NCBI GenBank assembly: GCA_002284895.1
Contig: CP015605.1
Span: 248,001-312,000 of the forward strand
Reading direction: 5' to 3'
DNA length: 64,000 nucleotides
DNA from: Actinobacteria bacterium IMCC19121
Lineage (GTDB): Bacteria; Actinomycetota; Actinomycetes; Nanopelagicales; Nanopelagicaceae
The notes under the pieces were generated by a model. It saw only the letters and a list, made by a program, of their open reading frames with translations, did no database searches and had not been told where the DNA came from. Shown here in pieces: positions 43,088 through 46,750 of the stretch. Position 1 is the stretch's first letter. Each line of letters starts with the position of its first letter. The position numbers were made by a program, and so were the translations under genes.

Positions 43088-43182
43088 GCGTATAACCTCC
43101 CATGTGCCACTGACAAGTGAATTCCTTGTAGGCGTAACTTAGGTGCCAGCCCCACTTTTGAGCGAGAATTGCTTGGGGGTGA

Positions 43183-43258
43183 TGGGGATAAAGCTGTGGG
43201 TAAGTGGGTGGATAAGCGTGTTTTCCTGTGTACAAAGCGGTGGATGAATTGTGGGTAA
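43183..43258 (-). promoter_or_regulatory. Cluster of DnaA-box-like 9-mers upstream of dnaB
   Basis: Reverse-strand 9-mers TTATCCCCA (43191-43183), TTACCCACA (43203-43195), TTATCCACC (43215-43207) and TTACCCACA (43258-43250) each differ by one base from TTATCCACA; TCATCCACC (43247-43239) differs by two. All face the same way and the first three are spaced exactly 12 bp. This is the largest gene-free stretch of the window (43088-43362). It also contains a 7-bp hairpin at 43349-43366 at the end of the preceding gene. Confidence 0.6.
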
Positions 43259-43362
43259 GTGGTGAGAGGTAACCCCTACTCTGAAAAAGCGCAGGTCAGA
43301 GGCGCATCTTTTTGCAGTGCATTGTGCATAAAAGTATTTCTGTAAATCTTAAATCGTGAGAT

Positions 43363-45813
43363 TTAACAACGAATTCGCTCATTTGTTGGATCAAAGAGTG
43401 GCTCTGCACAAATTACACCCGTACGCCAGTTACCAAAGAACTCAACGTCCACACTTGTGCCAACGCCTGTGTGCTCGATTGGTAGGTAGGCATAAGCAAT
43501 TGCCTTTTTAATTGTGTAGCCCTGGCCACCAGATTTAATACGGCCAACAATCTTTGACCCGATTCGAATGGGTTCTGATCCAAACGGCACACATGTGATG
43601 TCATCAAAAGTAATTGCAACTAATTTACGTGAAAGATTACTTTGCGCAGCAATAGCTGCTTCTTTGCCGTGGAAATTTTCTTTCTTGAGTGAAACTGCAA
43701 AGCCAAGACCTGCCTCATAAGGATTAGTTTCAGTGTTTATTTCACCCGCCCATGCGCGATAACCTTTTTCAAGTCGTAAAGATTCAATTGCGCGGTAACC
43801 ACAGGCTTTAATTCCCTGCGCTTTACCTGCCGCCATAATCTTTTCCCACAGCGCTAACCCTTGTTCGGTTGGAACATAGAGTTCCCAACCCAGTTCACCA
43901 ACGTAGGTAAGCCTTGTTGCGCGCACTTTAATATCACCCACAGTAATTTCCTGTGAACTCATAAATGGAAATGCTGCGTGGGAGAGATCTGTGCTGGTTA
44001 ATGATTGCAAAATCGCTCTGGACTTTGGCCCCATGATTCCAAAGCAGGCAAGATCTTTTGTAATGTTTGTAATCTCAACTCCATCAAATGAATGTTCTCT
44101 GCGCATCTTCTCTAACCAACCAAAATCATGCACCGAAAATGCAGTTCCTGTGACAATCATGAATTCATTCTCACCGGTTTGTGTGACGGTGTAGTCAGAT
44201 TCAATGCCGGCTTTTGAGTTAAGCGCCTGTGTGTAGGTTGTTTTGCCAACACCTTTAACGACATTATTTGCACAGACGTAGTTAAGAAATTCACCTGCTC
44301 TAGCCCCACTTATGCGGGCCTTGGCAAAGCTAGATTCATCAAATAAACCAGCGTTATTGCGCGTTGCATAGTGCTCTACTTGCACCGCATTTGACCAGTG
44401 ATTTCCTAACCAATCCTTGGGGCGTAGTGCATCGTTTCCAATATTGGTTGAATAAAAATTGACGCGCTCCCATGATGATTTCTCACCAAAGACTGCGCCA
44501 TTAGCTTTGTGCCACTCATAGACAGGGGACATAAATTTAGGCCGCGCAGATTTGCGTTCTTCACTTGGGTAGTGAATGTCGTAGTACTGCTCGTAGTTTT
44601 CTGTAATGCGCTGTAACGTAAAATCAGGAGATTCATAGGATGCACCGAAGCGTTTGATATCCATATGCCATAAATCCATCGTTGGCTCACCTGCAACAAC
44701 CCACTCAGCAACTACTTTGCCAATTCCACCTGCTCCTGCAATTCCGTGGGCACAAAAACCTGCAGCAACAAAGAAACCACCGACTGATGTTTCACCTAAA
44801 CAGAACTCATTATCTGGTGTGAAGCCCTCTGGTCCATTGATAAAGCTTTTAATTCCAACTTCTGCCATTTTAGGCACACGCTTTTGTGAAGCTTCAGCTA
44901 TATCTGCAAAGCGATTCCAGTCTTCTGCCAACAACGAATTGTTAAAGTTTGCTGGAATGTCATCGATATTGTTGTAGTCAGCAGACCATGCCTTTGATGT
45001 GCGCTCATATCCACCCATCAGTAAACCTGATACTTCTTGACGGAAGTAAATCAAATTGTCTGGATCACGCAGTGATGGCAAGAATGGGGCATCCTGTGGC
45101 ATGAAGTTTTCAGTAATTAAGTATTGGTGACTCATTGGAACAATTGGGACGCGAACATTGACCATGCGTGCTATTTGCGGTGCATACATTCCACCGCAGT
45201 TAACAACTATTTCGCATTCAATCTCACCTTTGTCGGTAACAACACTGCTCACTCGTCCATTTGTTGTTTTAATCTCAAGGACTCTGGTGTGTGTGAAGAT
45301 CTGAACGCCTTGCCTGCGAGCACCGGCAGCTAAGGCCATTGCCAGCTGTGAAGGGTCGACTTGGCCATCTGAGGCCATATAACAAGCGCCAACAACACCT
45401 TCTAGGTCAATGAGAGGAAAGAGGTCTTGGGCCTCTTTAGGTGAAATCTCTTTTAAATCTAAACCAAAAGTTTTAGCCCAACCGATTTGTCTGCGGATCT
45501 CTTGCATGCGCTCAGGTGTGGAAGCCAACTTAATACTGCCGCACTCGCGCCAACTTGGGGGTGTCTCTGTTTGTTGTAGTTTTCTATAGAGATCAACGGA
45601 GTGCATATTCATTAACGTCAGCGTTGGATCTGCGCGTAGTTGACCTACTAAGCCTGCGCTATGGAATGTAGAGCCGCTGGTAAGTTCATTCCTATCCAGC
45701 AAAATGACATCTTTTTCGCCAAGCTCGGCTAAATGATAGGCAACCGATGTTCCGCCCACGCCACCACCAATAATGATGATTTTTGCTCTGGTTGGGACTG
45801 CTGACACGGCCAC
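43363..45813 (-). CDS. FAD-dependent dimethylglycine/sarcosine dehydrogenase-like protein with GcvT domain
   Basis: An 816-residue two-part enzyme. Residues ~1-400: DAO-type FAD oxidoreductase (IIIIGGGVGGTSVAYHLAEL, SGSTFHSAGLVGQLR, VNCGGMYAPQIA, FVAAGFCAHGIAGAGG). Residues ~430-816: aminomethyltransferase (GcvT) and its C-terminal barrel (TRNNAGLFDESSFAKA, RLTYVGELGWELYVP, YRAIESLRLEKGYRAWAGEI). This layout is that of dimethylglycine or sarcosine dehydrogenases, which demethylate glycine derivatives and pass formaldehyde to tetrahydrofolate. Starts at GTG 45813 with reverse TACATT exactly at -12 to -7, not at the longer open frame to 46062, which is antisense to the divergent gene. Confidence 0.88.
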   Translation of the reverse strand: MAVSAVPTRAKIIIIGGGVGGTSVAYHLAELGEKDVILLDRNELTSGSTFHSAGLVGQLRADPTLTLMNMHSVDLYRKLQQTETPPSWRECGSIKLASTPERMQEIRRQIGWAKTFGLDLKEISPKEAQDLFPLIDLEGVVGACYMASDGQVDPSQLAMALAAGARRQGVQIFTHTRVLEIKTTNGRVSSVVTDKGEIECEIVVNCGGMYAPQIARMVNVRVPIVPMSHQYLITENFMPQDAPFLPSLRDPDNLIYFRQEVSGLLMGGYERTSKAWSADYNNIDDIPANFNNSLLAEDWNRFADIAEASQKRVPKMAEVGIKSFINGPEGFTPDNEFCLGETSVGGFFVAAGFCAHGIAGAGGIGKVVAEWVVAGEPTMDLWHMDIKRFGASYESPDFTLQRITENYEQYYDIHYPSEERKSARPKFMSPVYEWHKANGAVFGEKSSWERVNFYSTNIGNDALRPKDWLGNHWSNAVQVEHYATRNNAGLFDESSFAKARISGARAGEFLNYVCANNVVKGVGKTTYTQALNSKAGIESDYTVTQTGENEFMIVTGTAFSVHDFGWLEKMRREHSFDGVEITNITKDLACFGIMGPKSRAILQSLTSTDLSHAAFPFMSSQEITVGDIKVRATRLTYVGELGWELYVPTEQGLALWEKIMAAGKAQGIKACGYRAIESLRLEKGYRAWAGEINTETNPYEAGLGFAVSLKKENFHGKEAAIAAQSNLSRKLVAITFDDITCVPFGSEPIRIGSKIVGRIKSGGQGYTIKKAIAYAYLPIEHTGVGTSVDVEFFGNWRTGVICAEPLFDPTNERIRC

Positions 45814-45819
45814 ATATGA

Positions 45820-45829
45820 AATGTATCCT
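45820..45829. promoter_or_regulatory. Overlapping divergent -10 elements (DMGDH-like and kinase-like genes)
   Basis: AATGTATCCT: forward TATCCT (45824-45829) at -12 to -7 of GTG 45836; reverse TACATT (45825-45820) at -12 to -7 of GTG 45813. The hexamers share the central TA. CTGACA at 45801-45806, 17 bp before the forward hexamer, is a good -35. Confidence 0.58.
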
Positions 45830-45835
45830 GAATGC

Positions 45836-46750
45836 GTGTCTGACGATAGTGTCCTTGAGCAAGAGTTCGGTGAACGTTTCAATAAAATCGCCCTGCTCAA
45901 AGCCCGCACATCTATTAAAGAACTCTCCGGGGGATTAACCAATAGAAACTTTCTTATAGAAACTCCGGACGATAAATACGTGGCCCGAGTCTCTAGTAAC
46001 TCCTCATCTTTTCTTTCTATCGATAGAGGCTCTGAGTTTATAAACACCACTATTGCCGGCAAGGGCGGCGTGGGAGCCGAAGTGTTGGATTACATACCCG
46101 GTGAAGGTCTACTTCTTATTTCCTACATCAGCGGCAAAACCTTTGGCGCCGATGATGTTGCCGCGAACTTGCCCCGCATTGCAACCAGTTTGCGCAACCT
46201 TCACGCACTTGAGCCTTTTGATCATGAGTTCAATATGTTTAATACACAGAGTAATTATTTAAAGATTGTAAAAGAGCAGGGCTTTAGAGTTCCAGAAGGT
46301 TATGTGGATTTTGAACCTATGGTTGCACAAATCAAAAAAGCTTTTGAAGTTCTCTTTGAAGGTTTGGTGCCCTGTAATAATGATTTATTGCCAGGCAATT
46401 TCATCGATGATGGAAAGAAAATCTGGCTTATTGACTATGAATACTCAGGAAATAATGATGCCTGCTTTGAGATTGGCAACGTCTGGGCAGAGGCCTTTCA
46501 ACCCATAGAAGCACTTGAAGAGTTAGTCACCGCTTACTACGGCGCACATCGCCCCGACAAAGTTGCACGTGCTTGGTTATGGGCGCTGATGGCAAAGTAT
46601 GGATGGACTCTGTGGGCATCAATTCAAGATTCAGTAAGTGAGATTGAATTTGATTTCTGGGAGTGGGGAATGTCTAAATACGATTTAGCTAGAAGTGAAT
46701 TCACAAGTGAGTACTTCAAAAAAGCTTTGGTGGCAGTTACAACCAAATAA
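45836..46750 (+). CDS. Choline/ethanolamine kinase-like phosphotransferase
   Basis: A 304-residue protein of the APH/choline kinase fold: ELSGGLTNRNFLIET (substrate/ATP loop), YVARVSSN with the ATP-binding segment, the catalytic loop CNNDLLPGNFI and metal motif LIDYEYSGNNDACFEIGN. The loop normally begins His-Asn-Asp; here it is Asn-Asn-Asp, although the catalytic Asp and later Asn remain. Frame is open from 45773, but GTG 45836 has TATCCT at -12 to -7. Its divergence from a dimethylglycine/sarcosine dehydrogenase-like gene hints at choline-derived substrates (inference). Confidence 0.8.
   Translation: MSDDSVLEQEFGERFNKIALLKARTSIKELSGGLTNRNFLIETPDDKYVARVSSNSSSFLSIDRGSEFINTTIAGKGGVGAEVLDYIPGEGLLLISYISGKTFGADDVAANLPRIATSLRNLHALEPFDHEFNMFNTQSNYLKIVKEQGFRVPEGYVDFEPMVAQIKKAFEVLFEGLVPCNNDLLPGNFIDDGKKIWLIDYEYSGNNDACFEIGNVWAEAFQPIEALEELVTAYYGAHRPDKVARAWLWALMAKYGWTLWASIQDSVSEIEFDFWEWGMSKYDLARSEFTSEYFKKALVAVTTK

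Follow-up and report, generated by a model that had tools for sequence, protein, structure and literature searches.

The window analysed here is the whole 64,000-nucleotide stretch at positions 248001-312000 of the 1,506,415-base single contig of Actinobacteria bacterium IMCC19121, a freshwater bacterium with a genome of ~1.5 Mb. The gap 5' of dnaB (43088-43362, 275 bp) is bounded by a co-directional gene pair, and it is the largest gene-free stretch among the main ORFs kept, as the preliminary description of this DNA had said. The same-strand neighbour upstream of dnaB, with its end at 43363, was identified by Pfam as a FAD oxidoreductase/GCV_T fusion. Together with a second gene, choline-kinase-like and on the opposite strand, it occupies 43363-46750 and separates rplI from dnaB, while in many relatives rplI adjoins dnaB. 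The dnaA gene was found at genome positions 314582-315979, 2.6 kb past the window end and followed by dnaN, and the DnaA it encodes has Bac_DnaA and Bac_DnaA_C domains. The canonical dnaA/oriC is 23.5 kb from dnaB with rsmG (GidB) in between, which confirmed the earlier expectation of an origin more than 20 kb away, beyond rsmG. The DnaA-box array itself has a context that is not of the dnaA-dnaN type, being flanked by a dehydrogenase-like gene and dnaB.

Table 1 Features at the dnaB locus of IMCC19121, in window coordinates.
Feature	Coordinates	Strand	From dnaB start	Remarks
Inverted repeat ATCTCA-N5-TAAGAT	43346..43362	-		Conserved; 20 bp upstream of first box
TACTTT	43331..43336	-		Conserved; possible -10 hexamer
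Upstream DnaA box TTATGCACA	43323..43331	-	-244	1 mismatch; abuts TACTTT; outside span 43183-43258
TGACCTGCG element	43290..43298	-		Conserved
DnaA box TTACCCACA	43250..43258	-	-171	1 mismatch; paired with 43239 at 2-bp spacing, 3 mismatches over both boxes
Weak DnaA box TCATCCACC	43239..43247	-	-160	2 mismatches
Weak DnaA box TTGTACACA	43227..43235	-	-148	2 mismatches
DnaA box TTATCCACC	43207..43215	-	-128	1 mismatch
DnaA box TTACCCACA	43195..43203	-	-116	1 mismatch; double box with its neighbours
DnaA box TTATCCCCA	43183..43191	-	-104	1 mismatch from TTATCCACA; conserved in 33-sequence alignment
TAAGTT	43136..43141	-		Kept in nearer relatives; lies downstream of array, possibly a second -10 hexamer
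TTGTCAGTG element	43108..43116	-		Conserved
GGGAGG	43096..43101	-		Conserved; likely dnaB ribosome-binding site
dnaB, replicative helicase, 482 aa	41639..43087	-		GTG start; Pfam DnaB_C 4.4e-108, DnaB N 1.2e-34

As listed in Table 1, the cluster spans 104-171 bp upstream of the dnaB start. Five co-oriented 9-mers had been described here; the single orientation was correct, but the number was not, as the span 43183-43258 contains six. Three of them are indeed in exact 12-bp phase (starts 43183, 43195 and 43207), and four are one mismatch from the consensus TTATCCACA, as had been noted (43183, 43195, 43207 and 43250). On the plus strand of the 275-bp gap, no 9-mer with one mismatch from TTATCCACA was found. 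Tandem boxes separated by 2 or 3 bp, the arrangement that defines a double DnaA box, are also present in the array. According to the part of the E. coli account available, DnaA of that species prefers box pairs spaced 2-3 bp, which are required at nearly all of its targets (PMC11317965).

The clustering of the boxes was compared with chance. Over its full length the window shows no enrichment, with 17 9-mers at ≤1 mismatch against 15.5 expected. Four boxes on one strand within 76 bp were reached in none of 60 window shuffles (55 gave 1 and 5 gave 2), and five same-strand boxes in the intergenic gap in none of 3000 (maximum 3, once). In the 320 kb examined of the genome, three sites carry ≥3 same-strand boxes within 150 bp: the dnaB array with 5, the dnaA-dnaN gap with 3, and the rpmH-dnaA gap with 3, where rpmH was assigned from gene order. 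The dnaB array, with its 5 boxes in 149 bp, is the largest of these.

Double boxes were then counted in the whole genome. With a 3-bp spacer and ≤2 mismatches there are only three, one before dnaA and two in the dnaB array, and with a 2-bp spacer and ≤2 mismatches there is one, in the dnaA-dnaN gap; at 3 mismatches the genome-wide count was uninformative, the reversed-pattern control being about equally frequent. Among 18 complete genomes of the family, of which 17 are single contigs and one is in 3 contigs, 40 double boxes with 3-bp spacing and ≤2 mismatches were found, against 0 for the reversed control. By script, 18 of these were assigned to dnaA/oriC and 21, from 13 genomes, to the region upstream of dnaB, and the 40th is located 30-50 bp before a contig end, with the dnaA match starting at base 20 of the same contig. 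If that contig is circular, the 40th is also at the dnaA promoter, and all 40 are then at dnaA/oriC or dnaB. Five of the 18 genomes have no 3-bp-spaced pair at dnaB, and the four whose dnaB upstream was examined showed other spacings or fewer boxes.

To examine conservation within the order, 110 dnaB loci were collected, 80 from one genome collection and 30 from further genomes. Loci whose match starts late (L077, L081), loci of other orders (L082-L090) and loci with too little upstream DNA (L066, L078) were left out, and the remaining 97 upstreams were reduced to 79 by k-mer similarity; close relatives are still among the 79, and shared ancestry inflates every statistic computed over relatives. 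Within the last 300 bp before dnaB, at least two sense boxes were present in 78/79 of these non-redundant upstreams and at least three in 64/79. The 79 upstreams hold 265 sense boxes in all, a mean of 3.35 sense versus 0.03 antisense. Control segments of the same loci gave sense means of 0.03 (first 300 bp of dnaB), none (dnaB 601-900) and 0.01 (-600..-301), with 0.00-0.03 boxes per strand across these coding and distal controls, and permuted consensus sequences gave a mean of 0.07, the largest being 0.52. In an alignment of 33 sequences from nearer relatives, box columns were 86% identical versus 68% elsewhere, a value reached by 0/274 circular shifts of the box mask. The preliminary description had named conservation in relatives as a test that unconserved boxes would fail, and boxes kept in 78 of 79 upstreams passed it. 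The nearest identified gene upstream of dnaB was rplI at 49/80 loci and a choline-kinase-like or dehydrogenase-like gene at 18, and it was not identified or out of reach at 13; because this neighbour varies among loci, the array is linked to dnaB and not to the neighbour gene. All these results indicated a genuine cluster, one that is conserved and not due to chance. Eight of the public records collected (L018, L022, L026, L032, L034, L041, L042 and L059) are titled as Streptomyces griseus or Bifidobacterium breve MAGs, yet their dnaB is 83-93% identical to that of IMCC19121, and the titles look wrong.

We next compared the array with the boxes at oriC. The oriC boxes of IMCC19121 include TTATCCACA twice and TTATCCCCA twice, so that the same consensus is in use at both places, including the variant TTATCCCCA common to the dnaB array; a differing consensus at the true oriC had been named as evidence against the proposal. 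Perfect boxes are few in the dnaB arrays of the order (21/265), where TTACCCACA, TTATCCCCA and TTATCCACC are the commonest. In 15 complete genomes, 3/53 boxes were perfect at dnaB versus 43/112 at oriC, and the oriC fraction was higher in 13/15; the oriC box counts are lower bounds, as some oriC loci are cut by a contig end. Across the class, 45/140 sense boxes were perfect under the wider consensus TTRTCCACA, and therefore the sub-consensus character of the boxes, and with it the idea of an ATP-DnaA gauge, is limited to the order.

The spacing of the boxes follows the DNA helix. Box-box distances in the order are mostly 11-12, 20-24, 31-33, 42-44, 53-56, 64-67, 73-76 bp and onward, with empty stretches between, and different clades use different multiples of the helical repeat. 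The best period over the 79 upstreams was 10.7 bp (R 0.83), the pair counts not being independent. A separate test with 135 pair distances from 55 class genomes outside the order gave a best period of 10.9 bp, with a mean cosine of 0.61 versus 0.26 for the 99.9% null; after reduction to one entry for each distinct distance in each family, 10.7 bp still gave 0.39, which was not reached in 20000 draws. Box positions in the order were phased to an upstream TGAGA anchor (R 0.79; present in 56/79 sequences and picked by a heuristic) and unphased to the start codon (R 0.23). This pattern is compatible with nucleoprotein structures of any kind, a regulator of dnaB being just one of them.

The anchor is part of a TCTCA-N5-TGAGA repeat, which precedes the first box by 20 bp in 27/56 anchored sequences; in 7 further anchored sequences the distance was 19 bp, and those inspected had a different TGAGA. 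By the rule used, 23/79 sequences have no anchor, including near relatives of the window with the form TAAGA. The form ATCTCA-N5-T[AG]AGAT, phased with the DnaA boxes, has a single occurrence in the 320 kb examined. A sigma-70-type promoter scan of the dnaB upstream region found none, and the promoter geometry suggested by the hexamers in Table 1 is guesswork.

To determine how far the array extends, the 600 bp upstream of dnaB were scanned at ≤1 mismatch to TTRTCCACA in 55 of 143 class genomes outside the order, from 27 families, chosen for family spread and a listed N-terminal match. The mean was 2.55 sense and 0.76 antisense boxes, with 0.08 in shuffles; at least one sense box was present in 54/55 genomes and at least two in 44/55. 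The same scan of 40 of 89 genomes from other classes of the phylum, nearly one per family, gave on average 0.43 sense and 0.50 antisense boxes, with a sense box in 11/40, figures obtained with unrefined start codons and for classes that might use other boxes. These results suggested that the array is typical of the class Actinomycetes and mostly absent outside it within the phylum. The 27 families presumably include that of Mycobacterium, and the array, as shared by the class, is plausibly homologous to the dnaB site described in mycobacteria.

In the part of that report available, IDAP-seq in M. tuberculosis revealed five strongly bound DnaA regions, including those upstream of dnaB and in rpmH-dnaA, ChIP-seq in M. 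smegmatis revealed homologs of the same five, dnaB upstream included, and a mycobacterial DnaA mutant with reduced binding upstream of dnaB under-expressed dnaB (PMC7738170). The mycobacterial site (the Rv0057 region in M. tuberculosis, and M. smegmatis) is like that of IMCC19121 in class, gene and upstream position. It differs in that DnaA binding there was measured by IDAP-seq and ChIP-seq, while at the IMCC19121 array it is predicted from sequence; the boxes of the latter are phased on one strand and mostly deviate from the consensus by one base, whereas the available part of the mycobacterial account gives no box number, orientation or phase (PMC7738170). With this experimental precedent, the earlier suggestion that a DnaA-binding locus away from oriC is tied to dnaB is well supported at the sequence level. 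DnaA binding upstream of dnaB is thus already known in mycobacteria, and so is this kind of site. In Caulobacter, dnaB is a member of the DnaA regulon and has predicted upstream DnaA boxes (Hottes 2005, as reported in PMC8203912); dnaB is also linked to DnaA control there, but Caulobacter is of another phylum, and nothing indicates that the two sites share an ancestor. The double DnaA boxes of E. coli likewise have a tandem 2-3 bp spacing, but the pairs named in the available part of that source are at other genes, mutH, polA, purH, nrdA and mioC (PMC11317965). In the open-access literature, with subscription papers mostly outside our search, we found no published account of a class-wide, phased DnaA array before dnaB. 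From these limited searches, the class-wide conservation, the one-strand helical phasing and the one-base-off boxes in the order are apparently unreported.

We consider it probable that this array binds DnaA cooperatively and is a cis-regulatory element of dnaB that couples its expression to the level or state of the initiator, because of its conservation, phase, exclusivity and linkage to dnaB, the cognate Bac_DnaA_C domain, and the mycobacterial and E. coli literature. DnaA monomers would line up along one face of the DNA on the co-oriented boxes, given the whole-turn spacing with the closest boxes 2-3 bp apart, and the bound monomers would assemble into a cooperative oligomer. Since most boxes deviate from the consensus by one base, how far they are filled should be governed by cooperativity, and hence probably by how much ATP-DnaA is present. 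This complex would in turn set dnaB transcription, so that helicase supply would track the initiator level, and initiation and helicase supply are probably wired together. We lean towards activation of dnaB over repression, judging from the mycobacterial mutant data in the available part of PMC7738170. A bolder reading, which we put forward only tentatively, is that the array is a class-defining element of the Actinomycetes: an ATP-DnaA gauge of helically phased, one-way boxes, sub-consensus in this order, together with a protein on the phased TCTCA-N5-TGAGA, switching dnaB transcription as initiation-competent DnaA accumulates. The gauge idea is based on the sub-consensus boxes and on the finding that S. 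coelicolor DnaA, like M. tuberculosis DnaA, binds weak boxes better with ATP, as reported in the part of the source available (PMC3411110).

DnaA boxes outside oriC are known from datA of E. coli and from DnaA-box clusters of Streptomyces, which are defined by titration or ATP hydrolysis; the Streptomyces clusters near oriC titrate DnaA. The dnaB array is likewise outside oriC, but it is gene-linked and oriented. It could be a sink of this type for titration or inactivation, which, duplicated soon after initiation at ~21-26 kb from dnaA, would lower free DnaA and delay re-initiation, the position at dnaB being incidental. The rank of the array as the largest same-strand cluster of the 320 kb, the dnaA-dnaB separation of 20.6-25.8 kb in the 5 genomes read directly, and the location of the Streptomyces clusters are consistent with this. 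We still regard it as unlikely, since a sink needs neither an orientation facing dnaB nor attachment to dnaB, and both are class-wide (2.55 sense versus 0.76 antisense in 55 genomes); dnaB boxes further from consensus than the oriC boxes would also be odd for a sink. Titration may nevertheless accompany the regulatory role of the array.

That dnaB marks a second or alternative replication origin seems very improbable, although the boxes there are at least as dense as at oriC and an AT-rich 40-mer lies at the edge of the region. At the dnaA-dnaN gap the gene context is the canonical one, with boxes on both strands and an AT-rich 40-mer as well, the lowest GC in 40 bp being 25% there and 27.5% at the dnaB upstream, whereas the boxes before dnaB are all one-way and the region is a 275-bp gap in a co-directional pair. 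As the main reading, a second origin was rejected on the canonical context and two-strand boxes of dnaA-dnaN. The GC-skew analysis proposed earlier was run and was uninformative: cumulative skew is nearly flat over ~260-364 kb, around dnaA and with the window included, so that skew does not place the origin, and the minima disagree (raw 340 kb, third-position 447 kb, gene-orientation 301 kb). Least credible of all is that 9-mers resembling DnaA boxes arose by chance or general drift because the gap is AT-rich, or that the region encodes a structured leader RNA in place of protein sites. The window total of 9-mers at ≤1 mismatch is at chance level, but chance clustering was rejected by the shuffles, the conservation in relatives and the reversed-pattern control of zero, and the class specificity (11/40 outside the class by the same method) also argues against it. 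A known structured RNA was rejected as well, since no Rfam family came near its threshold and the best match was far below its gathering score.

To our knowledge, how actinobacteria hold replication to once per cycle is poorly understood. A short element kept in the class, mostly absent outside it, and joining initiator and helicase would offer a defined target for this question, testable both in laboratory species that can be cultured and in abundant freshwater bacteria. The results also suggest that in these streamlined genomes only two places, dnaA/oriC and dnaB, are left as the best predicted targets of DnaA.
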